Origin: Polytrichum commune
Taxonomy: Eukaryota > Streptophyta > Polytrichopsida > Polytrichales > Polytrichaceae
DNA length: 64,000 bases
Direction of reading: 5' to 3'
Assembly (NCBI GenBank): GCA_950295325.1
Contig: OX485805.1
Coordinates: forward strand, 28,073,501 to 28,137,500
Of the stretch, positions 1 through 63,990 are shown in pieces. Positions within the stretch are counted from its first letter, which is position 1, and every line of letters starts with the position of its first letter. The translations under genes and the position numbers were made by a program. The notes below the pieces were generated by a model. It saw only the letters and a program-made list of their open reading frames with translations. It was not told the origin of the DNA and ran no database searches.

Positions 1-688
1 AATTCCATTGCCCCATCGTCAACGTCGACAAGTTGTGGTCGCTGGTCCCCGAGGCCGTGAGGGCCAAGGTCGACGGAGACAAGTCCGCCCCACTTCTGGA
101 CGTGACACAGCATGGTTTCTTCAAGGTGAATTTCCCCGCTCAATGGCTAGACCTTTCGTTTGCACATTTCGTGTTGTGAATGTTTTCGAAGCTGTATGGG
201 ACCGAAGGCAAAATGCGCGATGAGATGAGAATTGGCAGGTTCACTTAAAAACAGAGCTTGGAAAGATGTTCTTCTTTGATAGTGTCTCAGGAATTGGAAC
301 AAAGAATTACAACATTGACCTGTCGTTAATTACCCCGAGCGTGCTGGCCGAGGTGATTAGTTAGGATATGCAGAGCAGTGATTGAATACCAGGGGGGTTC
401 CTGTTCGTGCAAGGATAATGTACAGAAGCCTAAATGGAGACTTTCTGCGGAGATTTGATATTAGGGTTTTATTTCGTTGCAATCGTCGTGTTTTGAAGGC
501 TGTTTAGGGTTCGAATCATTTGATATGGTTTCTGTAGAGGGGGAGTCTCCTTCTGACCGATGGTAATGCAGGTTCTTGGTAAGGGCGATCTGCCGACCCA
601 ACCAATGGTAGTGAAGGCGAAATTCTTCTCCAAGCTAGCAGAGAAGAAGATCAAGGAGGCGGGCGGTGCTGTGGTCCTGACCGCTTAG
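1..688 (+). CDS. RPL27A: 60S ribosomal protein L27a (uL15), C-terminal part
   Basis: Structural protein of the large cytosolic ribosomal subunit. The window opens inside an exon read in frame 3 (3-125), containing the family signature [15 protein letters not shown] and ending DVTQHGFFK. An intron (126-571, GT...AG) is followed by a last exon at 572-688 with [11 protein letters not shown], then [20 protein letters not shown] and a stop at 686-688. Both exons are phase 0 at the junction and together give 79 codons of the familiar C-terminal half; the N-terminal half lies left of the window. Two substitutions against the commonest plant form are visible ([10 protein letters not shown] where GKGVLPKQPV is usual). 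The intron carries no recognisable gene. The gene converges on the desiccation protein gene to its right. Confidence 0.95.
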
Positions 689-2623
689 AGCTGTCTGGAT
701 TTGTTCAGATACTGCAGGAGTGTGCAATGATAGAGGCCTTTTGACGTAGGTGAATTGGTGCACCGGGAAGGTTCTGGTGTGGAGATGTGGGATCTTTTTT
801 CTTCTGAAACAATCTCTAATTAACGATTCTTCATTCATCTGTTAGGATTTGTTGGAAGGCGGTTGACGTGTCTTGGTTTCCAATGTACTATACTCGATTT
901 GGTATTAGTCTGGTTGCCGTTGCCTTGCACTACAAGAATTCAGGGTTTTAATTCGTCGTAGAAGGAATGCTTCTTTGGAACCCGGTTCTTTGTCACACCT
1001 CATGGCAGTAGGTATTGCATGGTTAGCTTCTCGTTTCCTTCAGTAGTGTCCACGTATAGTTAAAATTGACACTCGTGGTCATTGAATATCTATACAGACA
1101 GGAATGTAATCCGAGGTTTCAATCAAGTGGATGTAGGCGGTCTGGCAGAGTGGTTAAACTATGTAGTCAGCATTTTACTCAACAACTTGGATGCAGGTGG
1201 CGTTTCCACATGTATGCTTGAGACTGTACAAGTGCAATGTCATCTCATGGTTGGTATGCCTTGAGAAAGAGCAACATGAGGAGTATGACACGATTGATTG
1301 CAAGTTCCTGTCAACAAATATGGAATCATATGAAATCCTGAATAAAGTCATCCTATTGACTGCACTTGCTGAGATAATTAACACATCAAGGACTGAGTTG
1401 CAACTCATTGGCCTGAAAGATTGGGTTCTAAAAAAAATTTGTTCAGACAATTAGAAATCAGAAACCGTTTCTGGTCTTTTACTTAATAATCTAGGGAGAT
1501 GTGTTAGCCTGACTTGAGTGGTAGTCCTAATGCTGTGGGCCACAGTAATTTTTCAGAGCCCATGCTATTTCTCACAATGAAACTAGTGTGGGCCACATTA
1601 AATTCGACCCTCACTAAATGTTTAGGAGAAAATAAGCGTGGGTCGCACTAATTTGTTTCCCTAGAAAACTAATGTGGAGGATTATTTAACTTTGTGCTAC
1701 TTTTGTGCATTAACTAAAAAATAAACGTGTTGGTCAAATGTCTTCATGAAGACTTAGGGAAAGACCCTGATCTTGGACTCACATTAATTCTGCCTAGATG
1801 TGAAAATTAGTGTAGGCAACGCTAATTAATTGTATGCTTATTTCACTCACACTAATAGGACTATTCAGTGTAGTTGTTTTATGGCCACAGGGAAGTTCAA
1901 AATCTTTTCAAAATTGTCTTTTTCAAGAATATTTCAGGGAGGATTCGGAGGAATAGCTGGGATGTTTTGTTTATGATTTATGTCTGAGGACTTATGACAA
2001 CACTGAATTCTAACCAATTTAAAACATTTGGTGTCAACCAGATGTATTCTTTACTACCATTCTGACAATATGTCAAAATTTTCATTCAAGGTTTAACATC
2101 AACAGTCAACTTCAAACATTCAGGTTTAACATTAGCAGTCACAGAGCAATTACATTGATAGACACCACTAGGAAGCCAAATCATTTTCAGAGTGCGCATC
2201 AGCAAGTTCACTTGTATGCTATGTTTGGCTGTTCTCTACTTACTAGCCTTTTCTGTCTCATCCCCGCTGCAAGTTCAATTGTAGGTTGTCAAAACCGCGT
2301 TGGAGGTAATTGTCCTCGTAGTTTTGTACAGCTTAAACTACACTTCAGTTTCTTACAATCATGTGGTCAGGAAAACTTTCAGACATTATATTTGTCACGG
2401 CAGGGTCAAGTAGCACAAGAAGCAAAATGGATTAAACGTATGTGAACTGATCGATGTCTGCGATCTTACAACATTATCTCTCAAGAGTCGTCAAAACTGT
2501 AGCTTTGAATGAGTTACAAGGGTGACTTACAATATCCAGGTTCATCAACGATTATATAATAACAACTACATACAAAATCAAAATCAAGATTTAAGTATGA
2601 TCATTCTTTGTGCTGCATTGCAT
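689..2623. other. Spacer between convergent L27a and PCC13-62 genes
   Basis: About 1.9 kb, AT-rich, holding the 3' flank of both convergent genes. No open frame here resembles a known protein. Around 1520-1720 short blocks with GTGGGCCACA/GTGGGTCGCACTAA cores recur a few times about 60-70 bases apart, like a decayed tandem or transposon remnant, but I cannot classify it. Confidence 0.5.
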
Positions 2624-4970
2624 CTAGTGATGGAGGTAGCTTTGAGCGATGACACCGTTTCCGCCCTTGGGGTAGAAGCCTCCGGGTATGCTCGGACTTC
2701 CGGACCCGTAAACAGTCTCCAGTACTTGCACACCCGTGCGAGCATACGAAATCGAGTCTTTGTCAGCAGACAAGATGTTGCCTGTCACTTTCATTTCAGC
2801 TCCAAGCTCCTTGGGCACGATGAGGCCCTCGTCCACAAACGCGTGGGACAAGTTGTTCCGCAAGCCCGAGATGGCGTCTGTGAATTCGGCCACCGTGTAT
2901 GGGTAAGGCCACACCTTCCAGTCCTTGTATTTGTAAAGCTCGGTGCGGATGACTGCGTCCTGCCCAGCTTCAACTCCCAGCAGCTTCGCCACCAACTGCA
3001 CAAACATAGCATGCTACCTCAGAAGAGGAAAAACACTTGATTTTTATAAAGTCTCATTGTTCATTGGTTGCATTCTTAATTAAGAGGTAGACTATTTCAA
3101 ACAGTTGTAATCAGGGCAAATTGGTAAACCTGGATACCTCAAACTGCGATCTTCATTCTTCCGTGCATCACTGTATCTATTACAAAATATCATAGTGCTT
3201 ATGCAACGCTCAGAAAGAATAAAGTCGATGGTTAACCTAATCGTCTCGCCGACATACTTTTTACCGGTGGAATCAGATGTGCTAGTAACAGACATGCGAT
3301 TAGAAAGTTACAAAGGATCTTAACATTTGTGTCAATACACAGTACAATGGTTTAAAAAAATCCAACAAATGTTTATAAGATACATATATAGTTATATCAG
3401 GCTCCCAATAACTTAACCTGCATAGATGGTGGCTCTCAATGTCCTCTTCCTTAACCACCTTGGGTCCGCCTGTTGGTTGTCTTTCAAGAGTCCACCTCCC
3501 GAAAGGAATGCATAATTTATACCTTACTATACATCATGATCAAAGTCAGGAGAAGGGACTCCCATTCACCGATGTTATTTTATGCTTTGTTCTACCAATC
3601 GATACGCGAATAGTGAGAGTTACACTATATTTATATTCAACTGCAAGTGCGCGCGCAGTGAGTTGTGGCATTGGTTAACTGCTTACCGACTTGGCTCCCA
3701 CACCCTCGAGGAGGGGGATGGTCCCCACGTATCCGGTCAGGCCTACATAAGGAATGGTGTAGATGGAGATCAAGTAGTTCAAGCTGTTGGCGTAAGGGTT
3801 GAAGGGGGGGTTCAGCTTTTTGCCGAACGCCTTGTCGATGGTGTTCGCCCAGTTCGTCGTGCTCAAATCCAGCTGGGGCCTTCCGAAAGCATACTTACCC
3901 AACTTGGACTTGATTGCTCTGTACACACATCAGCCCATGGCAATTGATTTTCAGAAATCCTCAATTGATCTAAATTCCCCCATTTGATACTTAGAAAACC
4001 TGTCTTACACTGCAATGGAGAAAAAGCATTCGAATACACTACTAGACTCGTATTCTGAGCACAAACGTACCTATTCGCTCATAGCAACAGAACAGAAACT
4101 AATTTGTGACGTTTTTTGAAAACACGTTTCAGGAATTTGAAGTATCCTCAAAAGAGGTCCAATGTTACAAACCCATCACAAAAGGCAACAACTCCTCAAA
4201 AACCATGTTGCCAACATCCACCCCCCCCCCTTGTAAGTTGCATGTATACATACTTCTTCGCTGCAATACTTATTATCCAACAGTTTGGAGGATTTTTTGG
4301 TTTCCTCAAAACCGGCGTATTTACAACTGTCAACAACCATCTCGTACTCCCAACCACAAACCCATCAATTAAACAAAGGCTCAAAACGATCGTAAATTCT
4401 GTTGCAAACACCCCCTTTGTGGTAATTACGTCCACTTCCATGCCAGCATAGCCCTGCGTACAGTACGTTGTTGCAATGCAACTCCAATGTATTACAACTT
4501 CTTGCGACAAACATTTATGCAACAATACCAGTCGAGTCTCTCTCGTTTCGGCCTTGCAATGATGCCCTTGGATTACGCCATTCAAAAATGACATAATGCA
4601 CACAAGAATGTGACGCATGATATCAAGGTGTAGGAATCACTGAGTAGTACCGAAGGTGGCCGACCTCCTGAAGGCCCAGCTGCTGCACGACATCGTTGTA
4701 GTAAGGGGATAAGTTGGCCTTCTTGGGGCCAGTGGGCGGCGGGCCTCCCCCAACAAGGTAAGGCGCAAGCTTGTCCAGCCCATACCCGTAGGCGGCCCAC
4801 AAGAAGTACTCAGCCTCGAAGTACTCCAGGTTCAAGGCTACTTGAATGTTCTCGAAGTCCGACACGGTGAAGTTCGGAGTGGTAGCCGCACAACTGTAAT
4901 CAGGCACCTGCAGCAATCCCAGCAGAATCAAAACAGCTGCTAAAGCAGCTCCTGCAGAGGAATTCACCAT
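2624..4970 (-). CDS. Desiccation-related protein PCC13-62-like (ferritin-like domain)
   Basis: Secreted or cell-wall protein of the PCC13-62 family, known from resurrection plants to accumulate on drying; the molecular activity is not established. Three exons on the minus strand: 4970-4651, 3918-3687 and 2995-2624, giving 307 residues against about 313 in the founding member. Residues 1-30 are a signal peptide (MVNSS, then a run of Ala/Leu/Ile/Val ending near SCAAT). The mature part starts with DFENIQVALNLEYFEAEYFL, the first helix of the ferritin-like fold, followed by QEVGHLRAIKSKLGK across the exon 1-2 junction and a C-terminal SIPGGFYPKGGNGVI segment typical of the family. Junction phases (2, 0) fit exactly. 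The ATG at 4970 is chosen because the upstream in-frame extension has only a GTG. A TATA-like box lies about 95 bases upstream. Confidence 0.95.
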
Positions 4971-48346: not shown

Positions 48347-51300
48347 ATGGCTGCTACGCCACCCTCTGCATCTTCCCTGAGATGGAGTTTACTGGGTCGC
48401 TTCATTTCGTCCAAAAGACCAGGTGCTCGTTGATCCACTGTGTGCTGGGCTATCTCCATTGCCTAACTCACGTGTTTGGAATATGTATTCAGCTCCGGCT
48501 CTCTGCTGGATACCCAAGCCTAAAGACTTTGTTTCAAATTTTTCATTGTAGGATTGGAAGGAGTATGTGGTGGGAGCTGGCGATAGTCTGTTCTTCAGTT
48601 TTGAACAGCAGCATGTGTCGAGGATTTGGATCCATGTCATTTAGGAGGTATTTGTGTGCTGCGGTCCTGGGTTTAGGGTTTTGGATGCTGATGGATTAGG
48701 TCCATTGCCTAACTCACATGGATGGAATGCGTATCCAGCTCCGGCTGTGAGTTTGGATACCCAAGCCTATAGACTTCGTTTCAAATTGTTCATGTATGGT
48801 TGGTTGCACTGCGTGGTGGGAGCTCACGGTAGTCTGTTCTTCAGTATTTCGATGATTTGGATCCAAGTCCTTTAGGAGGTATTTGCGTGCTATGATCCTG
48901 CGTTTAAGGTCTTAGATGCCTAACTCATCACATGTTTGGAATGCGTATTCAGCTCCGGCTGTCTGCTGGATATCCAAGCCTAAAGACTCCGTTGCAAGTT
49001 TTTCATTGTACGATCCGAAGGACTGTGGTGCGAGCTTGCGGCAGTCTGTTCTCCAGTATTGAACAGCAGCATGTGTTGAATTGGATCCATGTCTTTTAGG
49101 AGGTATTTGTGTGCTATGGTCCTGGGCTTAGGGTTTTAGATGCCGATGGATTAGGTCTATTGCCTAACACATGGTTGGATTGTGTATTCAGCGGCTGTGA
49201 GTCTGGACATCCATGCCTACAGACTTTGTTTTAGCATTTTTTTGGTATGGTTGGAAGTATTGTGTGGCGGAAGCTTGCTGTAGTCTGCTTTGCAGCATTG
49301 ACCAGCAGCATGTGTTGATTTGGATCTATGTCTTTTAAGAGGTATTTGTTTGCTATGGTCCTGATTTTAGGGTTTAAGATGCTGATGGTGGATTTGGGTG
49401 TCCTTGGTTGTTTTTGGCCCTTCTGAAAGCACTTGTGGTTGCGATGATTGGTCATGTGGTTACAGCAATGGATCTTACCAATACCCTCAGGTTGGAAGTC
49501 CAGGGTAGAAATAAGCAAGCAAGAGAGGGACTCAGGTGTTGGCTGTGTGCAGCGAACAGGGAAAGTAGCTGACAAAGACTTGGGTAGAATCTCAAGGCGA
49601 CCAGCAGGACGGTTCAATGTCATCCACTGCTCTCCAGTTCCTCCCCCTGAAGATGATGAATCCAGAGGCTCTGCAGGCTCCAAGCACAGTACCAATAGCA
49701 ACAACGAGGAGGTTGTGATGCAGTATGCTGTTTCCTCCAATCCGGATGTTGTGCTCACCCTGCGGTAAGAGAGGAATGCAAATTTCACATGGCTGCACCA
49801 TTAAAATTCTCATTTGTATACCTAACTTAGGTCATGGAAGCTTTGGAGTTCTTGAGGAATTTCTACTGGAAGTATTGGTTTTGGGACTGCAATTGACTAG
49901 ATGTACAACAATGTCAGATTGTAGTATGACTACTTTGTTGTAATTGGAAGGACAGAGACACAACCTTGTCATGCACATGTCACTATTGCCTGTTATCATA
50001 TTCCTCAACATCGTCATTGACATCCTTTGGTCAACAAACTTAGCTGAAATCGGTCACATGTTATGTGCATCATTTTGCATTGTTGTACAAAAATTGTATA
50101 GTGTGTGAAGATTTGTAGATCTGGTTGTTGACAAGCAGGGCGCATGTGGAAGTCATGTGCATGTTGTTGCTATGCAGGCAGCGCAAGGATGCTGATGTCA
50201 GGCTGAATGACTTCATTGTCTCCCAAAAGCACAACATTGATAGCACAGGTCTTGTATGTGAGTAGCTCCAACCTGCTTTCAATACCCTCATGCTCCTTAT
50301 CTGTGCTTTTGATTTATCTGCTGATTATGAATTGGCCAACATATTCTGAAGTTTTTATGAGCTTTCTTAAGAGCGCTAGTAAGGCCCCGGTTGTTTGTAA
50401 TATGGTTGAACTGATAACAATAGAATTCATGAACCATGTGGCGGTCAACAATTGACTTCATGAATACTTACTAATCACCAGATTTATCTGGATAAGTCAA
50501 TCTGGTGAATCCTTATGGGGTTTGCTCTGGAAAACCCTAAAGTTTACTGTTGGGGAAAACAAAACTAGCTTTCCACTTCAGGTGAAATTCTGGAAGACAT
50601 GTTTTTCAATTTGCCTAAAGAAGTATTAAGGTGTGCTGACAGTGTTGACTAAGGACATTGTGGGCAGTGTGTATCAAGACTACATTCAAAACCATAGTAA
50701 GCAAGCAATGTGAAAATGATGATTTGCATGAAGTGTTGGACAAGAACCAAGATTTTGCCATTCCATACTTTGCAAAAATTATGAGCTCTCTCCAAGTTAA
50801 CCATTATGAGAAATTGGTGACCAACTTAACTGAAATCCTCTGAAGCTTATATTGGATAGTTACAACCCCAAAGATGTGGGTTGGATGGTTCAAATCAATA
50901 ATGACCTATTTTATTTGGAGATCCAAAAGAATGGCATTTTAAGTGTCCTTCTAAGGACGCATTCATACTAGACCTAATACAGGCTTTCAAGGGTTAGAGT
51001 TCTCAATTGAGCTTTGGAGGCTAGTAAGTTAAAACTGGCTTACCGATTGGTAATTCTGGTTTGGACAGGCTTGTGGCCTGCAGAGGAGATTCTTACCTAC
51101 TACTGCATTTCCCGACCAGAGCTTTTCAGGTGAAAACCTTGGGACTGGTTTTTAGTGCTCAATTTATAGATACACTCCTGGCTTTTTAGTGTTCCGATCA
51201 ATCTACTCAATTTAACATTAATCTGTGGTGCAGAAATAAGCGAGTGGTCGAACTCGGGGCCGGATACGGATTGGCTGGTTTGGCAATTGCTGCTTGTACT

Positions 51301-52852
51301 GATGCAGCAGAGGTCCTTCTCACTGACGGGAATCCTCAAGTTGTTGAATGTATGTCCCAGGAATTGATATGACACTGTTGTGTAGTCTTATTGCATTCAC
51401 ATAAAAGTTATCTTTAAAGTGACAAAAAGGAGGGTTGAAGGAATTGAAGTCCTTTATGACAAGAGTCAAAGGTCACTTGTACTCGTTTTTGCAAGAAGGT
51501 AACTTAAACCCAAGGCCTAAACCCAGATCCCATGGGATCAGCTGCCTAAGGTCAGAGTAGTACTCCAATGGGCGACCTTCCTAACACTAGAGTTCTGGTG
51601 GACCCTACCACATATGCAAGTGAACCAGATATTTTCAACGAACCATGTGAGAACCTAGAGGCTTGTCCATAAGGGAGATAGGTGCCAACCAGCTTGTCTG
51701 CATCCCTTCAAGGTGTTCACCTTCAAAAGGAGGCAGTAGTCTTCGGGGGCCCTCTAATTCTTGTAATGCCCATTTCAGGAATACATTTAGACTTGGACCA
51801 ACTTGACCATAATCCATGCTAGTGGCCACATCAGAGTTGTCTTTCGTTATTGCCTTGTCTTTGCATGACAAGAATGGCAGATAATTCTGAAGCTAATGTG
51901 GTATAATTGTGTTATGGTACAGATATCAAAAAGAATATTACTGCGAATTGTGGATTATTTGGCGGCACTAAAGTGCGCACGTGTGCATTGCACTGGAGCC
52001 GACATCAGGCCGCCATGCCTGGATTGAAGTTTGACCTGGTTGTAGCTGCAGACTGGTATTTACTAACTAATCATGGTTATAAATTCTTTGAAGTCAAACC
52101 ATTTCAGGTTATGAATTTCATTTGACAAACAACCATTTCAAACTGGGGTCATGAACATAGTTATTTGTCAAACAAACTTCATAACCCCAAATGGTTGACC
52201 AATAGTCAGTAGTTCCCCATCTTGGTTACTAATCTCAAATTAATATTTTCTTTTGTTGGTATTTTCAATTTTGAGTCAGGAATTCAAATTTATCCTCCTA
52301 TTATAGGTTGCAATTAATAATATCATGCTACACACTATTTTGACTCTTGAGAATAGAGTATCTACTGCTAACACTTGTGTCGTCACAACAAGAAGGTTAT
52401 CAATTACAACATTTTATTATAAAACTTCTATGTGGCTGTATCAATGAAGGTTAGTTATTTGCTTTCTGGAGGCCAGTGGATCACTATGTATCTACTAACA
52501 TTACTTGCTTGGATGTTGCAGTACATTTTTTAAGGATTTTCATTTAGACCTGGCACACACAATCAAGGGCCTTCTTGGAACAGCTGATGATTGTCAAGCT
52601 ATTCTTTTCAACCCACAGCGAGGCGACTCCCTGGATCGCTTCATCAAGGCTTCTCAAAGTGCAAAACTTCAGGTCGACATTCACGAGCACTATGATGCCA
52701 AAATATGGGAACTTCATAAGGCCTTTGTGAAGAACGATGCAGGTTCCCAATGGCCAAACTATGATGAAGATCATTGTTACCCTCTTCTCCTCTCTATTAG
52801 GCATCTCAAAGATGGAGAGTCATCCACTGGTTGTTTTCAAGATCTCAACTAG
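48347..52852 (+). CDS. CaMKMT: Calmodulin-lysine N-methyltransferase
   Basis: Class I SAM-dependent methyltransferase expected to trimethylate a calmodulin lysine (Lys115 in known systems). Seven exons: 48347-48422, 49491-49764, 50178-50257, 51069-51129, 51234-51349, 51923-52055 and 52522-52852, every phase matching, 356 residues (human about 323). The start ATG at 48347 opens MAATPPSASSLRWSLLGR, matching the family's N-terminal LRWSLLR helix; an earlier ATG at 48335 is out of frame. Motif I is VVELGAGYGLAGL (about 168-180), followed by LLTDGN (acidic SAM ligand), ADCTFFKDFH and a C-terminal RGDSLDRF...YDAKIW and CYPLLLSI. Exon 2 encodes an unusually long Ser/Asn/Glu-rich insert. Intron 1 has four tandem repeats, intron 5 a 5S-derived element and intron 6 a small hairpin MITE. 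Confidence 0.93.
48440..49400. repeat. Four tandem copies of a 220-243 bp unit, CaM-KMT intron 1
   Basis: Each copy contains TTGCCTAAC..CA(C/T)(G/A)T followed by TTCAGCTCCGGCT, CCAAGCCTA(A/T)AGACT, GTCTGTTCTTCAGT, TTGGATCCATGTC and AGGAGGTATTTGTGTGCT. The last block is at about 48639, 48871, 49097 and 49337. It fills nearly all of the 1.07-kb intron. Confidence 0.88.
51498..51848 (+). mobile_element. 5S rRNA-derived SINE-like element, copy C
   Basis: In CaM-KMT intron 5. The head aligns to the sense strand of plant 5S rRNA: AGATCCCATGGGATCAGC, GAGTAGTACTCCAATGGGCG and ACCTTCCTAACAC correspond to 5S box A through the intermediate element and box C. The tail ACTTGGACCAACTTG ... TCAGAGTTGTCTTTCGTT is shared with the copies at 60.9 and 63.0 kb. 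The middle about 130 bases is private to this copy. The flanking duplication is not clear. Confidence 0.75.
52099..52194. mobile_element. Small hairpin MITE in CaM-KMT intron 6
   Basis: The left arm from CCATTTCAGGTTATGAATTTC and the right arm, reverse-complemented CCATTTGGGGTTATGAAGTTT, match over about 48 bases with few changes and meet near 52147. It encodes nothing. I could not fix a target duplication. Confidence 0.65.
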
Positions 52853-53687
52853 ATGATTTTGTTCTTTGTAATATAAAATGATCTAAGCTATTTCTTAAGG
52901 CCAACATTTGCATACACCTCAATTGTTTGAACAGTGAAGAGTAATTGTGCACTTCTGGCATTCCTTTGTCTCTAAAGGAACTCTGAACTCAAACAATCCC
53001 AATGATCTAAGTTGAGCTGGTGATTGCTCCCAAGGTTTCATTCTCTCTTACTCTGTCGACTTGAGAACCAACTTCCCAAGCTAGGAGACTGAAACAGAGT
53101 CTTTGAATTTATGCACATGTTAATATGCAGATGGTATTTCAAATGTTAGCATGTAATAAATTTGGTAAGAGCCCAGACTATACCTTTGTCTGAAGACCAT
53201 TTCAAATTGCTTGGACCATTAACTTCAAATGTAAAACACTTGCAATTATGTATGGAAATGGTGGCTAACAATTTCTAGAGATTGTATAGGATTGTATGTT
53301 GGATGTCTTCATGTACATGATCGTACTTGCACTCTAATTTCAGCTTATTTATCCACTTGGAGTATCAATAAGTTAAAAATTCAGCTTATTTCAATTTTCT
53401 AGACTCCAAAGCCTTGTCATCATTGTTAGAAATTTCAAATTGATAAAAACGGAAAATCTAATTTTCCTTATTATTCTTCCTCTGCATGTGTCCTCTCCAA
53501 TGAATGGGGGAGAACCGACCTGTAGTTACTGGTTCTCTCTTCAACCTCTATGGGATAAAGGTAGGACAAAACAACTTACATGCATTGAATGCATGGAAGT
53601 AAGAAAATCTGTCATTCAAGAAATCTACTGATCTTTGCACATGCTATGTTCCAATTGTCCTTTTTGAGGGCAAATGCTTAAATCTTA
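52853..53687. other. 3' flank of CaM-KMT
   Basis: About 830 bases of AT-rich sequence up to the Tc1-type element; no gene or repeat recognised. Confidence 0.45.
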
Positions 53688-55278
53688 CAAGTGACTTCAA
53701 AAACCGAGTCTATGGAAGAAACTTGAAACTTCAAATGACAATGCCAGAAACAAGAGTGATCGAAATCAAAAGTTATAAAAACAAAAATTATAGAGTATAA
53801 AGTTCTACACACCATTGTAAAGATAAAATCATGATTTCAATTACAACAAAGTAGATAAAGATGTTGAAGAAAAGTATGTACATAGACTCCGTTTTTGCAC
53901 TACAGTATAGAAGACACTTAAATATATATCTATTCAGTGCCCTTTTGCAGCTAAAACAGTTGTAATTCGATCAGACATGCTAGGATACAATCCTCTACAC
54001 TTCTCTAGACTAATAGAGTCACAAACTTCTTGCACTTGAACCCATAATTGCATAATGCCATTGGGAGGACTATAGGATGAGTTCAATTGCCATTTCGGTA
54101 AAGCCCATATGTGCTAAATAGGATTTAAGTTAGGGGATTGTGCATGCCACTCTAAAACACAAAATGGTTGCTTCCCAAACCATTCTTGAACAATCTTGGT
54201 TGTATGCACGGCAACATTGTCTTGTTGAGAAATGATTTCTGCAAGATTGAAACCAAATGCAAGCAATATATTACACAAATCTTGCTCTAAAATTGCAATG
54301 TAGCCTCTAGCATTCACATGCCCTTGTATATTATGCAATGACCCCAATCCTCTACAAGTCAAACAACCCCAAAGCATTATAGAGCCTCCACCATGCTTCA
54401 CAATTTGGTTCACAGCACGCACAAGGATGTTTTCTTTGTCCTCTATCCAACACCAAGTCCTCCCATATGAATTGAAATGACATATTTTAGTTTCATCACT
54501 AAACACCACCCGCTCCCAATCACTCACAATCCAATCTTTATGCATTTGAGCAAAGCAAAATTTGTCTTTGATGTTCTTCCAACTCAAAGTAGGCTTCTTA
54601 ACCTTTGTAAAAGAAGACAATCCTTGTTCTTTGAACACATTCCTCAAGGTATTGTCACACATCTTTACACCCATCTCTCTTCGAAGCACTTTTGATGCCT
54701 ATGTTGCAGTTTCTAAACCGCCAACAGTAACTAGCCGTGAAGCATAACGCTTCTCCCACTCTGTTAGGACCTTAGGACGACCTCCTTTAGACAATGCTAT
54801 ACTCGTAGAAAGCCTCTTTCTCACTCTATTAACTGTAGATTGTGCCAAACCCACACTCTTTGCAATCTCTCTACTATTCCTACCCTTCTCTATCAAGGCT
54901 ATGATATTTTGCTCTTTCTCTCATGAAATAGGTCTCGTCTTTCTATACAACCTCCACAAAGCCACAAGAAGTATTCAACACAATACACACGAAACCCTCA
55001 AATTTTTTGACTCAAAACAATGAAGAAACAAGAAATTGAGAGCTCTCAAAGAAGGTAGCAAGCGGCGCCTCAAAAATTGAGTCTATGTGACGTCGACATC
55101 TCTCTTCCTCTCACCGAAACCCCAATGAAGTTGATGACATCACCATGACATCATCTAAAAGTCAACTTCTAGTTCTTTTACAATTACATTTTACATTTCC
55201 TAAATATATCATTATCATTTTGTGAAATGCCCATGAAAGTCCTTGTTTCTTGCATAGACTCGGTTTTTGGAGTCATTG
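53688..55278 (-). mobile_element. Tc1-type (DD34E) DNA transposon, complete but inactive
   Basis: A 1,591-bp element flanked on both sides by TA (53686-53687 and 55279-55280), the target duplication of Tc1/mariner elements. Terminal inverted repeats of about 35 bp: the left begins CAAGTGACTTCAAAAACCGA and the right, reverse-complemented, CAATGACTCCAAAAACCGAG, so they differ by one indel and a few bases. The only gene is a transposase on the minus strand (separate entry), with three in-frame stops. A second, inner copy of the terminal motif lies about 190 bases inside each end, in opposite orientation to the outer one (53881-53905 and 55069-55087). Confidence 0.9.
53934..54968 (-). pseudogene. 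Tc1-like transposase with three nonsense codons
   Basis: The catalytic domain shows VVFSDETKICHF (first Asp), SQQDNVAVHTTK (second Asp) and SPNLNPI followed by TAG where the catalytic Glu belongs. There are exactly 34 residues between the second Asp and the stop, which is the DD34E spacing. The frame then continues (WALPKWQLN...) to a TGA at 53934-53936. Two further in-frame stops: TAG at 54699-54701, between the DNA-binding region and catalytic domain, and TGA at 54921-54923 near the N-terminus. The N-terminal helix-turn-helix pair is recognisable (REIAKSVGLAQSTVNRVRKR, then GGRPKVLTEWEKR). No frameshift is needed to follow the protein, so decay is by point mutation only; the exact start is uncertain. 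Confidence 0.88.
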
Positions 55279-55280
55279 TA

Positions 55281-58200
55281 GTGTCACCAACACTAAGTGT
55301 TAACCCAACATTATTTGTCATTCCTTTTAAAAAATTTGGGGGATTATAGATTTACAGTGTTGCAATAATTGTCACTTACCAAGTTAATTTTCATCCAAAT
55401 TTCAATCATCCATGACAATATTTCATCACAAGTTGTTGAAAAGAGAAGGTAGGGTTTTGGCCAATGGATGAACTCATCCATCATCCATGACAAATATTTG
55501 TTCACTTATTGTGTCATCCAAAAAGTTAATATAGTGACATTAAATACCATATGACATCAAATATCATATTTAGTGTACCTTGTCCATACGTGTTGGGGTC
55601 TGCATTTTGGTTTTAGGTTTTTATAAACTAGGGGTTCATTGAGCACTCATGGGCTCCCTTGAGTTTGCTCTTTGGATTGTGGCTAAGTTATTATGATCTT
55701 GTCTTTGTTTGCATGAGTTACATGCTTTGAATGAAAAATGTTGAATGGCTTTCTTATTGGAAAGTGAAAGTGGATTTTATATGTAAAAGGTGCTTGTTTA
55801 ATTGGAGATTTATATTTTGTAAATGTAGTGGAGGCAAATATGACATTACATTAAAAAGCTTGGTATAAATACACAAGTCCATTTTCTAACCTGTTGTTAG
55901 TATGTATACATTTGTTGTTCTCTATAAACTTCTTGTATATAGGATATATAATTTCATAGCAACCCACACACGTCATTTGGATTTTCAATGAAGAGTCCAC
56001 CCCCTGGGTGGAGTGTATTGTTGTGATATTCTTTGCATTGTCACATTTTGACCCTCGGTTTGCAACAACTTGGATATTCTTGATACGTTCATCGGCCATG
56101 CATGACTAAAACATATCCCAATCTTTCCAGCATTTATTGGCCACAAGCTCAAATCGCCTCAAAACAATATACTGTGGGACTGACAATATTCCACACAACA
56201 CTATTATGGATCTGAATAATGTTATGAAGCCTCCTCCAACAACCTTCTCAAAAGACTTGAAGGCATGCCATACAAACTTTGAGACTTCATCATCGCTTGA
56301 ATCATGTAGACTAAAACAGAATGTCCTCTTTTGATCTTCAAGAGCATTGATCCGCATAGTGTTATGTAATGCATTGACAACAAAATATCATAGCTTTCAC
56401 ATTCATGGGTTGTCTTTAATTTTATATATAAACATCACTACAAGAAAAAAAAAATGGGGTTTTCAAATTTTTTTTTTAAGAATATTTGGCCAAAACATAG
56501 TCCAAATAAAATTATGGGGAAATATATTAAGAAAAAAAGGGGGCCACGTTTCCATATATGACAGGCTAATTGGTCCATGAACTACTATATGGACATTTTG
56601 GCCATCTCAATATCAAACTTAATTATTTTACTTGAGACTCGAGGGAGTCATTACTATGGAATAAAATATATTGATGATCTATTCTTTTTCGAATTCGTAG
56701 AGGTCTCAAGTTAAAGGGGAGAGAGGAATTCTAGCCCTCAAGAACAAATAACTTGTACAATGGATTTGCAATCCGCCCCTTTAATTTACTCGGCCATTTT
56801 TCAAATCAAAAAATTATTTCTACTTCAACATGGTGTTACAGTAGAAGTCTACACTACGTGAATAATAATAATAATATATTTTGCATTAATTATAATATTG
56901 AAATATTGAAATGAGAAATTTTATACAAAGTGTATTTTCAATTATATTAGTCTTGTATTTTGTTTTAGCTTAGCTAGATACTGGCCAGGGCGCTTCATTA
57001 GTGAATTTTAAGAACAAATAGAAAGATAAATTTTTCATATAAATCTTCACCTAATCTCAAACCTAGAATACATGTTATAAAAGCATTTACATGAGCCATC
57101 GTCTGAAAACAATGCCCTTTTTTTTTGCCCTCTAATAATAATTCTAATATGAACCATAAATTAATGCAAAAATTTGACTAGGTAGTATTCTTGGATGTAA
57201 AATGTTATTGTTTAGTGACTAGGTACAAACTATTGTACTTATCCTAATTCTTCATGTCCATAGATCTTTTGAGTGTAATTGGTTAATTTTTTAAATACTT
57301 CAATTAATGCCAAAGTGATGGAGGTGCTACAGTAGTGCCATGACACATGACTTGATTTTGAGTGCTAAAGTGAGAAGGAATGAGCAGTTAAAATGAGCAG
57401 TTATGATAGACTTTAGACTTTGGTAATATGTTTGAGCCAACTTTTGCCTTCAAAAATTCAGAGTAATTTTAATTCAAGAAATAAAATTACCAAAAAAATT
57501 GTAGTCCTCCTGATTGCTATCTTCCTATACAAGAAACATTTGCACCACCATATGCTTCTCCAGGTGTTGGGGAGATCCTCTTACGTGATCAGTATGGACA
57601 CCTCTACCCTAATAGAAGATCCTCACCCACAATGTGGTGATTCGCACTTAACAATCCAACATCAATAGACACCCCTGGTGGAGAGTACAAGGCACGACTG
57701 TAGCACCTTAAGACAACTTTGCAAGATTCTGTAGGTTGCATATGAGTTTTAAAAAAATTAAGTTTGTTTTTGTAGAATCTGTATGGACTTGCCAATCTAT
57801 GGAATTTTTTTGACAATTTTTCAAGGTATCTAGCTTGCTTGAAATAGCAAAAGTTTCTTGAAGCGACGCTTTGAAGCCTCAGTAGCTTTAAGAGCCGTGT
57901 GAATCTAGCGTCAGTTGTATGAGGACTGAAATTCTCTTGGATCAAAAACATGGACACACATTGAAAGCAACTTAGATGTCTAGAAATGGCAAGACTGGAT
58001 TGTCTTATCGCATACATCTGATTAAGGCTGGTTCACACTATCCATCATCAACCCTCGCAATCACTGGGTGGCAACCAGAGAAATTTGGCAGACGACACTT
58101 GCTGCTACAGGTGAAGTAATGCTGGGGACCATGGTGAAAGTCCACAAATAAATAGTATTGTTGTGACTCATGTCTCCCTTCTTGCATTACTTCGAGGTAG

Positions 58201-58289
58201 GCCACACTCTCTCGGTTCTTCCGATTCTAATGCAATCCCGAAACAAAGAAATCTCAAAAAAATTCTTAGGGCATATCTAAAGTGACTGT
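55281..58289. other. Spacer with one MITE remnant
   Basis: About 3 kb, AT-rich. A deleted relative of the 12.6-kb MITE lies at 56173-56226. A 137-codon open frame on the minus strand (58017-57604) resembles nothing I know and has no supporting splice or motif evidence, so it is not called. The rest is featureless to me, including the 3' flank of the NPR1-like gene. Confidence 0.45.
56173..56226. mobile_element. Deleted MITE remnant (family of 12644-12791)
   Basis: GTGGGACTGACAATATT joins directly to the family's right end TTATGGATCTGAATAATG. The central part is missing relative to the 12.6-kb copy. Confidence 0.65.
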
Positions 58290-61200
58290 CTACAATCTCG
58301 TTATAAGACTGCTACTTGAAGATGTTGAGGATGATGAAGACGATAAAACAACTTCCTGCCTTCGCGGTTTCTTCTGTTTCTCAATCTGTTTCTCTACAAC
58401 GTATCCTTGCAATATGGCCTTTAGTTCCTGAAATTGCCGTTTCTTCATGATCTGGTCCTCTGTGATGCCTTTATCAAAGAGGTCAGTCCAATCATCATCT
58501 TCTAGGACGTACTTGTCTACAACTGCAGAGTACTTTGGAAAAACTCTGCGTCCTGCTTCAACTGCACACCACAATTTGCAACATTTAAGCACCTTCAAGA
58601 CGAGATTGCATTTATTCATTCTACAAAGCAAAAGGCCCAAGAGCATCCTCCCAGGGGCACACCAAACGGCCCTCTACCATCGGTTTCATGGAGTCAGACG
58701 GAATGTTTGTCTCACCAAATATATCCAAAATGTGCATTATGTCAAAATCAGTAGGCAATACACATTTTGGACATATTTGGCGAGACAAGCATTCCGTCTT
58801 ACCGCATTGAGCCTACAAACCCGATAGTCGAGGGCCATTTGGTGTATCTCATGCGGGGATGCTCTTAACACGACTCGAAGGTGACAACAAATATCGAATT
58901 CATTAGTCAAGGTCTTATGACCCGCCAATCCAAATCAAAAGTATATCCAGAACAAGTTTCCAGTGCCGCAGGACAATTGCCCAGGACTCATATACTTGTA
59001 GTGAGATCTGCACATGAACTACTTCCATAACTAGTGAGAAACAAAACAGGCTATTGTAGGATTTCTAAACGAGTTATTCCATTTGAGGAAATGCAAATCC
59101 AGGGAGACCTCGTACAGAGGGAGAACATAACCTAAGAAAGAAAAGAGTTGTACCAAAAATTGACTGATATAATGTTCATAGAGAACCTACCCGTGTTTCG
59201 CAAGGCTTCACACCTCTGCCTCAAAGACTCGAGCAGATCTTCTTTTGATTCATCACTAATAGTAACACCTACCAGACCTGCTAGTCTTTTTGTAGGTTCT
59301 TCGTTTAAATCTACCGAGGGTCTTCTCCTCCTTGCAATTTCTGACCCAGGAGAGCCACTTGTAACTCCTGAATACTCAGGACTGAAGGGTTCAAGTTGAG
59401 ACATACCCATCACAATGCTAGCCTCTTGTGGGAAAAGCAACTTCGCCAGAGACACTGTAAAACATTAGCCCCAAATGCGGGCACCCAAGGTCAGAGGCTA
59501 GCTGGAGGTACTCACATACATTTATCCCCATATTGCAGAATAAATGTAAATCAAAAACTTACCACGGTATGACCACATAAAGTGGTAAGGCAATGGTGAC
59601 ACAATGTTACAAAACAAAAAACATAAAATGTGTTCACACCTCATTTTGGAGTTCCTATCAAATCTTATGTGGCATATGGTGTGTCACTTGATGTTAGGCA
59701 AAGTGGTAAGATACCACCACTCAATGCTCGGTTATCATTAGCTCAAAATAAGGTGGTGGTGATATTTTATATGTCCAAGAAACAAGCAATTCGATCAATG
59801 TGGACATAGGATACTATGATAGTGATAGACCAGGTGGAACAATGATTGTATGTTGCCATGCGATATTCAATTGGTGTTAGGCCTTTAACATTATGGACAG
59901 CTAACACTTGACGTCGTCAAACCTCTAAAGGGTCCAACCACACCAAATGGTAAGTCAATGGTAGCTCAATGCTAATAAAATAAGAAACATACAACGCATC
60001 CACACCTAATGTTGCAGTTATCATCAAATCTTATGTGGCATATGATGTGTCACTTCATGTTAAGCAAAGTGGTCAGATATCACTTAGTGCTAAGTTACTG
60101 TCAGCTCATATACTGAAGTCCCAAGTTTTAGCTCAAATTGAGGTAGCATTTTATATGTCTAAAAAGGAAACAAATTAAGTCAATGTAAACTTTACCACTA
60201 GATGTGGACATTTGAATGTTATAATAACGGTGGAGTAGGTGCTAAGAATGATGATGTTAGCGTGGCACTTAACATTATGGACGACTAACATTTGGTGTGT
60301 CTAGACCTTTGATTATTGACACCAGGAATAAGAAGCCTGAATGCAAAGGCACCTACAAGAATGGAATCCTGCTGGTGACTTGAATAAATGCCAAGGGACT
60401 GACCTCGATTTTCAAGATATAGCAACATGCTCATGAGCTCCTCTTCAGTAGATGGTACATTCAACACCGCAGCACTTGGAATTGTGTGTCTCTTTTCGGC
60501 CTGTTCCAGCAAATCGATGCACAGGCGGTCCTTTTTGTTCTCCTCCTGCTCCGAGTCTAATATACTTGCCAGGCGTCTAGAGATGTCTATAGCTCTCTGA
60601 TTATTCATTGTCAATTCATCAAGACGAGCTCCCTTATCTAATAGACTTCCAATTATCTGCGGCTCCCTTCGCCAGGCGGCAACATGGAGAACCGTCAACC
60701 CCCTTCCATTTCGTAGATTTGTGTCTACAACAACAAATGGAGAAGTCGTTAGGAGATGAAACATAAATAGGACATTAGACCTGGAAACATAGTACCCTGA
60801 ACCCTCACAATTCACTTGGTTGCAACAAATGTGATTGAACACCTCCTGGTAAGGCAGTTGCCCAGTCAGATAAAACAAAAGACAGCTCTGATATTGCCAC
60901 CGGTGTGTATTATGATCTTGCTTCATTGTCGAGTTGGTATATGTCTATATGTAATCCCCGAAACAGGCATTACAAGGATTAAAGAACCCCTAACAACTAC
61001 TGATTTTCGAAGGTAAAACCATGACTGGGTACAACCAAACCAGCCGACACTTATTAATTTCAAGGACAAGCCCCTAAGTTCCACATGGTTGGTTGAAAAT
61101 ACCCACCCGGATAGCCCCACTCTTATTAGGTGGATCATAGGTGGTAGGGTGCACCAAAAATCAATTCCTACAAAAGTCACCCATCGAGTACTATTCCGGT

Positions 61201-62924
61201 CTTAGGCAGCTTAACCGTGGAGTTCCCATGGAATCAAGGTTAATGCCTTGGGTGTAAGCCATCCTTCCAGCCAGATAACAGATAGCACTTGCCAATACCT
61301 TCCTTCAATACAAATACCTAGCTAAAGTTCCACTGCTAGACAAATATGAGATGAGAAGCAAGATATCTGACAAGCAACATATGAAAATGGTCAGCAGTTC
61401 ACACTAGCGAGTAACATGATTACAAACACCTACTGCTACCGATTGTTCTTCTCTTCACTGTGACAAGATTGATGGTAGTAATCACATGATGTGAGCAATA
61501 TTAGTATAAATGACATGCCCATATTTGACTAGGAGATTGTAGTGAGTGTCATAGGATTATATTGAATTATATATCATTGTATGAATATTTATATTCTGAA
61601 TATTTTCAATCTCTTTTCTGTTCACGCAAAGCGAATTTACCTGCCGCCTTAAGGTCCAGCAACATAGCCATTGTTCTAGGATCACAGTGTGCTGCAGCAT
61701 AATGAAGTGCATGCGCCCCATCCAAGTTCAACTTCTTCTCCTCCAGCAGCAAACGCACCAATTCAATGTCATCCGAGTCAAGTGCTCTGCAAAAATAAAT
61801 ATCCAGATGCTGTTAGCACAAAACAATCACAAACTTTTGTATCCAGAGTGTTTGGTTCTGGTGATGTGATGGCAGTTCAATCCCAATGATCTGGACTGCT
61901 ATACACACTCCAGGGAAGAGTTTCCTGGAATCCAAACAAGAGGAACAGAATCAAAACAATTGACATCAAAGAGCACCGAACGAGGATCTCAAAGTGATAC
62001 AACAATAGACTTATTTTTCAGGGGCTCAAAAATCACCAAACTGCACAAGGAGGCTCGGTCTTTGTAGGAAATCCTAACCCCAGTCAATACAACACTACTA
62101 TGGAGGAACAGACCAGTGTTGGGTTGGTATCATATTTTTTTGATACCAATCAGGCATCCGTAATGAGGATTTCACATTTTTTGCTACCAGTAGGGTATAG
62201 GTGATTAACAATATTTATTTTTTTTGATATCATTTGAGTCTATATATTATGCAAAACCCTTCATACCTAGGCAAAATCGCACTAGTATCAATATGGTTTA
62301 GAATGTTATTGACCCAAATAAAACCTTGGGTAAACAAAGATTATCTCACCTTGATATACCCACCAAATAACAATTTTTGGTATGAAAAGTTTGATACACA
62401 CAAGTAGGTTCATTGATACCATTATTGATGTTGATTAATGATACATTGATTCACCTATATACCAGACCAACATTGTAACAGACCATGCAACTCAAAAAAC
62501 TACCATAGTTTCCCCCCCCCCCCAGTACTGATGTAGACTATTGCAATGCATAGAACTGCTAACCTAACCACAATTCTGTCCAGCAGGTCCCCAATGGTGG
62601 GAAGGGTGACCCATTTTCCAGGGACTCAGGTATTATCCACCAAAGATAAAAGCATTGCCTGTGTATTGCCCTGCATTGCTTCTCTTGAACTTGCTCCAGA
62701 TGACATCCTTCATGTCCAAGCTCGAGACGAAATCTCTTCACACTCTTGAGAGCTTCTCCTGGAATCTCCCTTTCTAGTGTAAAATTATCAATATCTGAGT
62801 TGGCTATCACCTTCAAGCAAAGACAGTGCAGGTCAGGAACCTCACGAGTACACGCAAGTTTCGATATATAAAGCACATCCTCCACTTGATAATTGTTGTT
62901 GTCCAAATTGTCCATAAGGTATTG
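58290..62924 (-). CDS. NPR1-like transcriptional co-activator, C-terminal part
   Basis: Salicylic-acid pathway regulator family (BTB, ankyrin, NPR1-like C domain) that works with TGA bZIP factors in the nucleus. Five exons on the minus strand: 62924-62659, 61786-61641, 60724-60404, 59454-59191 and 58561-58290, giving the last 422 residues. Visible: BTB-proximal helices (YQVEDVLYISKLACTREVPD) and ankyrin repeats with the family hallmarks ALDSDDIELVRLLLEE, LDGAHALHYAAAHCD and GLTVLHVAAWRREP. These are followed by KDRLCIDLLEQAEKR, LLYLENR|VSLAKLLFPQEA, RRRRPSVDLNEEP (basic, nuclear) and VEAGRRVFPKYSAVVDK. All phases agree if the first visible intron uses a GC donor at 62658-62657. The BTB exon(s) should lie beyond 64000. 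The C-terminus ends in a Ser-rich stretch. Confidence 0.93.
58641..58864. mobile_element. Hairpin MITE (224 bp) in the last NPR1 intron
   Basis: Bounded by GAGCATCC and GGATGCTC. Arms 58641-58741 and 58753-58864 match through CACCAAA(C/T)GGCCCTC, AGACGGAATG(T/C)TTGTCTC and CCAAATAT(A/G)TCCAAAATGTG. The loop is only about 11 bases, so the whole element is one long hairpin. The flanks do not give a clean target duplication. Confidence 0.8.
59589..60302. repeat. Direct duplication (about 355 bp unit) in an NPR1 intron
   Basis: The blocks TCAAATCTTATGTGGCATATG(G/A)TGTGTCACTT, AAGTGGT(A/C)AGATA, ATTTTATATGTC(C/T)A, CAATGT, and CATTATGGAC(A/G)(G/A)CTAACA occur twice in order, in 59589-59930 and 59946-60302. 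Non-coding. Confidence 0.85.
60874..61266 (-). mobile_element. 5S rRNA-derived SINE-like element, copy A
   Basis: On the minus strand the head reads AACTCCACGGTTAAGCTGCC, then GGAATAGTACTCGATGGGTGAC, which aligns to plant 5S rRNA (AACTCCGCAGTTAAGCGTGC ... GAGTAGTACTAGGATGGGTGAC). A body starting GTGCACCCTACCACCTATG and a tail ending CAGAGCTGTCTTTTGTT are shared with copy B. It is flanked by CCAGTCAGATAA (60862-60873) and CCAGCCAGATAA (61267-61278), an 11/12 target-site duplication. It carries an insert of about 140 bases that copy B lacks. It lies between NPR1 exons. Confidence 0.82.
62116..62476. mobile_element. MITE family M, copy 2 (361 bp, perfect 9-bp target duplication)
   Basis: Flanked by AACAGACCA on both sides (62107-62115 and 62477-62485). 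The ends are inverted repeats (GTGTTGGGTTGGTAT; TATACCAGACCAACATTGT). It is homologous over its whole length to 22152-22519. A 9-bp duplication and non-coding body fit a Mutator-type MITE. Inserted in an NPR1 intron. Confidence 0.87.
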
Positions 62925-62975
62925 CTGCAAATCAGCAGATCCATGTCAGTCTTTTCACAACATCAACATTCCATA

Positions 62976-63223
62976 TAAGGAAAGAAAGATGACTCAAATA
63001 TTGCCACCAGTGTGAAGTATGGTGTTGCTTCATTTCCAAGTTGGTCTAAGTCTATATGTAATATCCGATACCCCACTATGATTGGGTGGATCAAAGATGG
63101 TAGGGTGCACTGGAAATCAAGAGCTAGGAAGGTCACCCATCCAAGTACTATTCCAGTCTTAGGCGGCTGAACCTCGGAGTTCCCGTGAGATCTGGGTTTA
63201 GGCCTTGGGTTTAAGCCACCCCT
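62976..63223 (-). mobile_element. 5S rRNA-derived SINE-like element, copy B
   Basis: Minus-strand head GGAACTCCGAGGTTCAGCCG, then GAATAGTACTTGGATGGGTG and ACCTTCCTAGC, a clear match to 5S rRNA. The body GTGCACCCTACCATCTTTGA leads to the tail GGCAATATTTGAGTCATC. A possible 7-bp duplication TTCCATA lies at 62969-62975 and 63224-63230. This is the most compact of the three copies (248 bp) and probably closest to the family form. Confidence 0.8.
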
Positions 63224-63459
63224 TTCCATAGGGGCATTTACTAGTGGCATCCTCTACAGTGCAGAAGCTTTTAGACTTTCAATATCTCCATATTCACGAA
63301 GTGTTGAATGAACTCAGGTAGGGAACAACTTCACTTGACAATATAAAGGAGCTTAAAGTCAGTAATATGGAAGCGCTTTGTGATTATGAAAGATTTCAGG
63401 TAAACATCAAGTAGACTACATCCAAGTCGGTACAAGAAAATGTGTAACTAAACGAGTTC

Positions 63460-63990
63460 AATTATTCACCATGGGTTTCCTGGTTACCCAGACATTACAA
63501 ACTTCTAAATTTAGATACACCAATAATACTGCTTTCGCATTGATTCAATCACATCAAATTACAACATTAAAGCAATGCTCACCAAACATACGGTTGCAAT
63601 TAGTGTATTCTGTTTCTATAGATGCAAGACCTAAATTAATGGAATAAAATCCAGGGTGAGTGGTTGGCCACGAGGAGGAGGAGGAGGATGAGTTAGGACC
63701 TGAGCAAGATTCTTGGGCATTGGGGTCTCAATACTGAAGCGCATGTCAAATAATTCACAAACTTCTAAATTCATATACCATTAACATTGATTCGATCACA
63801 ACAAATTAAAGCATTGCAGTAATGTCCGCCAAACATAGGGTTTCAATTTTTACATTATCTTTCTATGTTTTATAGATGCAAGACCTAAACTATTAAAACA
63901 CACACTCCAGGGTGGAAATTCACATCAGTGATTGGCCATGAGGAGGAGGAAGAGTTGGGAGTTTGGACCTGAGCAAGGTTCTTAAGCTCT
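63460..63990. repeat. Tandem pair of a dispersed repeat (unit about 255 bp)
   Basis: CACAAACTTCTAAATT, TTGATTC(A/G)ATCACA, CCAAACATA, ATAGATGCAAGACCTAAA and GAGGAGGAGGA(A/G) appear twice, about 255 bases apart. A third, more diverged member is at 21075-21185 in DnaJ intron 1 (TTGATTCAATCACGTCAAACTACAAC ... GCTGCAAGACCTAAA). No open frame. At this end of the window the sequence should be intron of the NPR1-like gene; I see no BTB coding here. Confidence 0.75.

Follow-up and report, generated by a model that had tools for sequence, protein, structure and literature searches.

The genome of the land plant Polytrichum commune carries an old, dispersed family of ~398-bp elements that we interpret as a SINE, with a probability of about 0.88. 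The front end derives from the plant's own 5S rRNA gene, and the back end resembles the 3′ end of a resident LINE. This combination was not found described for land plants in the open-licence papers we searched (those consulted include PMC8825457 and PMC4640811). The window analysed is a 64,000-nucleotide stretch of contig OX485805.1 (assembly GCA_950295325.1), positions 28,073,501 to 28,137,500 of the forward strand. An earlier note, made from this sequence alone, had proposed that three elements in the window share a 5S-like head, a body and a tail, and that they are SINEs rather than Cassandra TRIMs. The observation is confirmed and the interpretation is supported, with the refinement that the likely partner LINE is Dualen/RandI-like.

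The 5S-headed family and its copies

A profile of 398 columns, built from 21 copies, finds three copies in the window at E 0.001, and the head, body and tail described in the earlier note agree with it. The copy at 60874-61266 (−) is near full length, with model positions 1-397 at 61264-60878 (nhmmer E 5.5e-111), and lies between exon-like pieces of an NPR1-like gene. The copy at 51498-51848 (+) is matched at 51498-51845 and covers model positions 2-398 with small deletions (E 4.1e-96). The copy at 62976-63223 (−), matched at 62984-63221, has an internal deletion: it retains model positions 1-155 and 320-398 (E 7.8e-48 and 2.3e-19) and lacks 156-319. Beyond the window, 39 further loci, of 1404 candidates, were scored in the genome at 73-76% identity. 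One 30-mer of the family occurs at 358 places, whereas its reversed control occurs at none. As 8 of 23 copies not chosen by the 30-mer carry it within two mismatches, about 1000 copies is a floor.

The head comprises about the first 115 nt, i.e., 61150-61264 (−) in the copy at 60874-61266, the lower-coordinate limit being approximate. The column majority of 37 full-length copies aligns to the host 5S gene from +1, with 87 of 117 columns identical. The score of this alignment is 40, against 2.1 +/- 1.3 for 2000 shuffles and at most 4 for windows of the element's own body. The profile, in turn, hits the host 5S genes at E down to 5.4e-14, and 33 of the 37 copies score nearer the host 5S than a presumed angiosperm 5S. 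Single copies are too decayed for Rfam: there were no matches at the gathering score in the window and no 5S among the 10 matches in a relaxed scan of 51300-63500. Of two copies outside the window, L008 reached 22.2 bits (cut-off 38) and L013 was not matched at all (L numbers denote loci fetched from the genome). The 5S head would let RNA polymerase III start transcription from inside the element, although this is inferred. The columns of the three promoter boxes are no better conserved than the rest, at 0.867 against 0.899 for the rest of the head and 0.865 for the body, and selection on the boxes was not seen once copies chosen by the 30-mer were left out. In addition, 30 of 37 copies hold a run of four or more T in the first 370 nt, a possible Pol III stop.

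The family has a sharp 5′ end and, in most of 23 aligned copies, a pyrimidine-rich, (TTTC)n-like tail, which is poor or lacking in L005, L010 and L019. The tail is followed by target duplications of variable length. Of the 37 full-length copies, 15 have a duplication with a score of 8 or more, against 0.5 expected, and the 17 with p below 0.03 have lengths of 8-15 bp, with a median of 12. The 12-bp flanking repeat with one mismatch reported in the earlier note is real and belongs to the copy at 60874-61266: the 5′ copy of the duplication, TTATCTGGCTGG at 61267-61278, and the 3′ copy, TTATCTGACTGG at 60862-60873, both read on the minus strand, match at 11 of 12 positions (p 0.0008 against mispaired flanks). 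The copy at 51498-51848 has a probable duplication, CTCGTTTTTGCAAGA at 51482-51496 versus CTTGTCTTTGCATGA at 51854-51868, matching at 12 of 15 (p 0.02). The copy at 62976-63223 has a flank match of only 7 bp (p 0.05). The remaining 20 of 37 full-length copies have no duplication at p below 0.03, which fits the age of the family (mean divergence of 14% from the column majority), although age has not been shown to be the cause.

The LINE-like 3′ end and the probable partner

The last ~145 nt of the element resemble the 3′ end of a resident LINE and finish in the same stem-loop before a pyrimidine-rich microsatellite. In the copy at 60874-61266, this part extends over 60878-61020 (−), with approximate limits. 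The SINE profile matched none of 12 LINE loci even at E 10, so the link came from reading the 3′ ends. SINE positions 250-398 are collinear with the last ~145 nt of the LINE at L095, with 85 positions identical and 34 different, and a score of 39 against at most 37 in 300 shuffles. Against the LINEs L127 and L121, only a 31-nt piece aligns. The 12-mer ATTCACGCCGGT, chosen after seeing the ends, occurs with at most one mismatch in 20 of 23 LINE loci, whereas 0 of 50 one-kb window pieces contain it with 2 or fewer. It is found with 2 or fewer mismatches in the last 70 nt of 19 of 37 SINEs and in 0 of 715 window pieces of 70 nt. T-rich tracts follow in 17 of 23 LINE loci by a simple pattern. In the SINE stem, 184 of 219 cells are standard pairs, compared with 32-51% when one arm is slid, and the SINE and LINE share the same outer stem with the same unpaired G and A. 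The outer stem pattern ATTCACGCCGG..CCGGAGT has 892 exact places, and its reversed control has 0. The likeness is weaker for single LINE ends. In a 52-nt test, from which three of 23 loci were left out for lack of the motif, the LINE ends score 20-29 and only 12 of 20 reach p below 0.01. Among 962 window pieces, the 99th percentile is 22 and the maximum 26, so that only L095 (29) lies above all of them.

The LINE has APE endonuclease and reverse transcriptase domains, PF14529 and PF00078 being over the cut-off in 2 of 2 frames scanned (L112 and L113), and an RNase H, PF00075, at 6.4e-15 in L082, the one frame scanned. In a PDB comparison, it is nearer R2 (4.6e-32) than L1 (1e-18). A restriction-endonuclease-like part, which would complete the Dualen/RandI layout, rests on short motifs in a few copies: a CCHC..RHN motif is present in L082-L084 (3 of 3), and (K/R)PDI follows it in L082 and L083 but not L084 and is found at the matching place in L096 and L108; most other 3′-end loci do not reach that far upstream. 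No domain match was obtained for this part. It is inferred that the LINE's enzyme recognises the 3′ end of the SINE RNA and inserts a copy by target-primed reverse transcription, leaving duplications of 8-15 bp.

Interestingly, a younger SINE of the same genome has a tRNA-like head and the same LINE-derived tail, which suggests that heads were exchanged. The middle part of the 5S-headed SINE is perhaps shared with this second element, but the link is weaker: the full alignment scores 40, equal to the shuffle maximum of 40, and the middle part scores 34 against a maximum of 35.

Alternative explanations

A Cassandra-type TRIM, in which the copies would be solo LTRs, or an LTR plus primer site, of a 5S-bearing LTR retrotransposon, is very unlikely. 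It is suggested by the 5S promoter inside a short dispersed repeat and by the end of the copy at 60874-61266, which lies near TATCAGAGC, a string that appears to resemble the plant tRNA-Met primer site; Cassandras carry a methionine primer site (PMC10853983). However, TATCAGAGC occurs in 1 of 37 copies, i.e., in that copy alone. None of the 37 begins with TG; starts are set by the profile, but in 16 of the 17 best duplications the repeat ends within 2 nt of that start. The duplications are not the constant 5 bp that the earlier note named as the mark of an LTR element. Of 60 fetched loci, 55 have one head, 2 have none by this count, and 3 are flagged with two. By model coordinates, two of those are one interrupted copy, and the third pair is no more alike than unrelated copies; neighbouring copies are 69-74% alike. 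No LTR pairs were seen within the roughly 0.7-1.1 kb of flank read, which leaves aside pairs further apart, as in long LTR elements. The pyrimidine-rich tail and LINE-like stem-loop also count against Cassandra. Dispersed 5S retropseudogenes, or tandem 5S fragments carried along by other repeats, are contradicted: although decayed 5S-like pieces exist elsewhere in the genome, full-length copies share ~280 bp of non-5S sequence in a fixed arrangement.

It remains possible, though unlikely, that the SINE's partner is a different LINE and that the likeness of its 3′ end to the Dualen-like LINE is a relic or convergence. The SINE stem is slightly shorter than those of the LINEs, most sampled LINEs end in (TTTTC)n, (TTC)n or (TATC)n rather than in a (TTTC)n-like tail, and most single LINE ends do not score above the best window piece. 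Against this stand the collinear likeness to L095 and the shared outer stem. Moreover, a (TTTC)n-type tail occurs after the same hairpin in L124, and the poly(A) LINEs of the genome (L079-L081) have no similar end, scoring only 10-16.

Relation to known elements

In SINE3 elements, such as lepidopteran HaSE3 and relatives, and in 5S-related SINEs of Aspergillus, a SINE likewise has a Pol III promoter head from 5S rRNA (PMC10886601; PMC5063351). The present family differs in its land-plant host, its head nearest to that plant's own 5S, and its tail like that of a Dualen/RandI-like LINE; it belongs with SINE3 by head type only, not by descent. Chlamydomonas SINEX-2_CR is a SINE with a (CTTT)n tail paired with a RandI/Dualen LINE, RandI-2/3 (PMC3747384), but its promoter is listed as unknown and its host is a green alga. 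Cassandra is a plant non-autonomous retroelement with a 5S promoter module, but it has paired LTRs, a primer site and a polypurine tract (PMC10853983); neither LTR pairs, within the flanks read, nor a shared primer site were found here. Maize ZmSINE2/ZmSINE3 share a 3′ end with their LINE, LINE1-1 (PMC3747384; PMC2774510), but have tRNA heads and an L1-clade partner, and a search for 5S SINEs in maize was without success (PMC2774510).

A review states that plant SINEs are tRNA-derived and that plant LINEs are L1 or RTE (PMC9033089), and in the papers listed by our searches 5S-headed SINEs are described from animals and a fungus. A more far-reaching proposal, which we regard as improbable but not excluded, is that land plants have, or had, a lineage of 5S-headed SINEs driven by Dualen-like LINEs and made by exchange of tRNA and 5S heads on a common body, and that insertion of such a SINE into an LTR gave rise to the 5S module of Cassandra, as has been speculated without a plant donor in hand (PMC10886601). 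A 5S SINE in a land plant shows that a 5S promoter can be captured by non-LTR elements there too. It gives a concrete candidate of the kind proposed as Cassandra's ancestor and would add a Dualen/RandI-SINE pair in a land plant to the algal ones. The young tRNA-headed SINE with the same LINE-derived tail makes head exchange testable within one genome.

The 5S-headed family and its termini

The window lies at G000:C3:28073501-28137500, that is, on contig C3 of a 408-Mb assembly, the seven large contigs of which are 42-78 Mb. The host is a land plant outside the flowering plants. A profile built from 21 copies finds three copies of the family in the window. Genome searches with two of the copies, the one at 60874-61266 and the copy at locus L013, scored 40 loci each, the query's own place included, out of 1404 and 2298 rough candidates, respectively. 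The other 39 loci are 73-76% identical to the first query and 78-83% identical to the second. A 30-mer from the head matches 358 places with at most two mismatches, 189 on one strand and 169 on the other, whereas the reversed control matches 0. Of 23 copies not picked by that 30-mer, three in the window and 20 found by similarity, 8 carry it within two mismatches. Since those 20 are among the best preserved, about 1000 copies is a floor. Sixty family loci were collected, 20 by similarity and 40 by the 30-mer; in four of the copies, L020, L042, L063 and L076, there are internal or tandem partial repeats of the body. Over 37 full-length copies, 16 of them chosen by the 30-mer, mean divergence from the column majority is 14.0%, or 11.5% outside CpG-type columns, with a range of 6.7-18.9%. 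Thus, the family is old.

The first ~115 columns align with the host 5S gene from its first base. Of 117 columns, 87 are identical, of which 33 of 47, 39 of 48 and 15 of 22 fall in 5S positions 1-49, 50-97 and 98-119, the promoter limits used here being provisional. The alignment score is 40, against 2.1 +/- 1.3 for shuffles. Shared stretches include CCAAGGC, GGCCGGAATAGTACT and CTGGTGC. The copies are related, so they do not amount to 37 independent votes. Columns of the promoter boxes are not more conserved than the rest, as expected if copies decay neutrally; transcription by Pol III is an inference. Other 5S-like sequences occur in the genome. A separate 5S-like unit, above the Rfam cut-off, is found in tandem about 184 bp apart in loci L031, L034 and L037, which are 94-97% alike over 0.8-1.2 kb, and singly in locus L038, which shares only about 210 bp. 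In locus L023 (C2:45902599-45904316), two 5S genes lie in opposite orientation inside 429-bp inverted arms that are 98.6% alike.

The 5′ end of the element is sharp. At the 3′ end, most copies have pyrimidine-rich tracts resembling (TTTC)n, often followed by a repeat of the 5′ flank. For the 37 full-length copies, the best flank match was scored and compared with all mispaired flanks: 15 of 37 reach a score of 8 against 0.5 expected, and 6 of 37 reach 10 against 0.03 expected. The 17 copies with p below 0.03 have duplications of 8-15 bp, with a median of 12, and in 16 of them the repeat ends within 2 nt of the start set by the profile. The other 20 show no duplication at that level, in keeping with age.

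The possibility that these copies belong to an LTR element was considered. None of the 37 copies begins with TG, although the starts are set by the profile, and only 1 of 37 has the primer-site-like TATCAGAGC. Of the 60 loci, 55 have one head-bearing match, 3 have two and 2 have none by this count. Of the three, L051 and L064 look, by their model coordinates, like single copies that are interrupted, and in L065 the two copies are 73.7% alike, against 74-75% for unrelated ones. The close neighbours in loci L073 and L067 are 69% and 74% alike. Together, and within the flanks of about 0.7-1.1 kb that were read, this argues strongly against an LTR element.

The 3′ part and the candidate partner LINE

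Searches for PF14529 and PF00078 gave 150 scored matches each, of 401 and 2620 candidates, respectively. Stretches downstream of 12 reverse transcriptase matches were examined, together with the expected 3′ ends of 20 LINEs with the APE domain, chosen mainly for long open frames. LINEs of one class end in poly(A). The APE-bearing class ends in ATTCACGCCGGT, a loop and the returning stem arm, followed by (TTTTC)n, (TTC)n or (TATC)n. The 12-mer, which was chosen after the ends had been seen, is present with at most one mismatch in 20 of 23 loci, the exceptions being L084, L102 and L104, while 0 of 50 one-kb window pieces have it with two or fewer. T-rich tracts follow in 17 of 23 loci by a simple pattern. 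In the SINE majority, the same position reads ATTCACGCCGGTGGCAACATCGGAGTCGTC before (TTTC)n. Of the 37 copies, 19 have the 12-mer with two or fewer mismatches in their last 70 nt, as do 0 of 715 window pieces of that length.

A 52-nt comparison of SINE and LINE ends is weaker. Scores are 20-29, with p below 0.01 for 12 of 20 LINE ends (L084, L102 and L104 were left out); window pieces score up to 26, 1% of them reaching 22, and poly(A) LINE ends score 10-16. The longer comparison gives 85 identical and 34 different positions over the last ~145 nt of one LINE, L095, with a score of 39 against at most 37 in 300 shuffles. With two other LINEs, L127 and L121, only a 31-nt piece aligns, with scores of 34 and 30 against shuffle maxima of 31 and 28. 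In the SINE stem, 184 of 219 cells are standard pairs, against 32-51% when one arm is slid. LINE L095 and the SINE both fold into AC, an unpaired G and CCGG on one side, and CGG, an unpaired A and GT on the other. The pattern ATTCACGCCGG..CCGGAGT occurs at 892 places, with 0 for the reversed control. Use of this LINE's enzyme by the SINE is inferred from these likenesses.

The LINE has APE and RT, as seen in loci L112 and L113, and RNase H, as seen in L082 (LINE at 3-3701). Downstream, a CCHC..RHN motif is found in L082-L084 (3 of 3), with (K/R)PDI after it in L082 and L083 but not in L084, and at the matching place in L096 and L108. Dualen is the group that encodes both APE and a restriction-like endonuclease, and RNase H is reported for it (PMC4640811). 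The LINE appears to be Dualen/RandI, although no domain model confirms the restriction-like part. Its C-terminal frame also has a sub-cut-off match to PCIF1_WW (E 1.7e-6). By PDB comparison, its reverse transcriptase is nearer R2 (4.6e-32) than L1 (1e-18). In Chlamydomonas a SINE with a (CTTT)n tail is paired with a RandI LINE (PMC3747384).

Genomic placement and precedents

The copy at 60874-61266 lies between pieces matching NPR1_like_C (60285-60800) and ankyrin repeats (61606-61812). The copy at 62976-63223 lies beside a piece with a DUF3420 match just under its cut-off. Both copies are in the sense direction of that gene. Elsewhere in the window, a Tc1/mariner-type transposase fragment lies at 54114-54689 on the minus strand (HTH_Tnp_Tc3_2, 1.6e-7; DDE_3 below its cut-off). 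Fold-back sequences at 52091-52201 and 58702-58790 weakly match several microRNA families, all below their cut-offs, and look like small inverted-repeat elements.

A search for 5S SINEs in maize was without success (PMC2774510), and no plant 5S SINE was found in our literature searches, although one may be recorded in subscription papers or in Repbase entries. Cassandra has been speculated to come from a SINE3 inserted in an LTR (PMC10886601), while another paper on Cassandra cites SINEs in animals for such promoter capture and prefers capture near a 5S array (PMC10853983).

A second SINE with a tRNA-like head

Among 15 further loci with this LINE tail, L122 (oriented 387-753), L125 (384-753) and L128 (424-741) share a ~320-370-bp element. 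In L122 and L125 it starts with a tRNA-like head, most of which is lacking in L128. The boxes of this head were judged by eye, and ARAGORN finds no tRNA in any of the 15 loci. In L122 and L125 the element has flanking repeats, also identified by eye, TACTAGGCTACA and TCGGAGCAGCC. Its last ~150 nt are like those of the LINE, and its tail is (TATC)n-type or TC-rich. The tRNA-headed SINE is young: besides the query, 39 loci at 99% identity were scored.

Just behind the head, this element shares ACCACCT-T-GTCCACCCA...TGGTGGGG with the 5S SINE, 27 identical of 31 aligned. That piece alone scores 34 against a shuffle maximum of 35 (z 3.6), and body plus tail score 40 against a maximum of 40 (z 4.7), so the link is suggestive rather than certain. 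The 5S-SINE profile hits these three of the 15 loci at E 3.5e-6 to 6.5e-4. An exchange of heads, in whichever direction, is an inference; the simplest reading is one body and LINE tail with two different heads.
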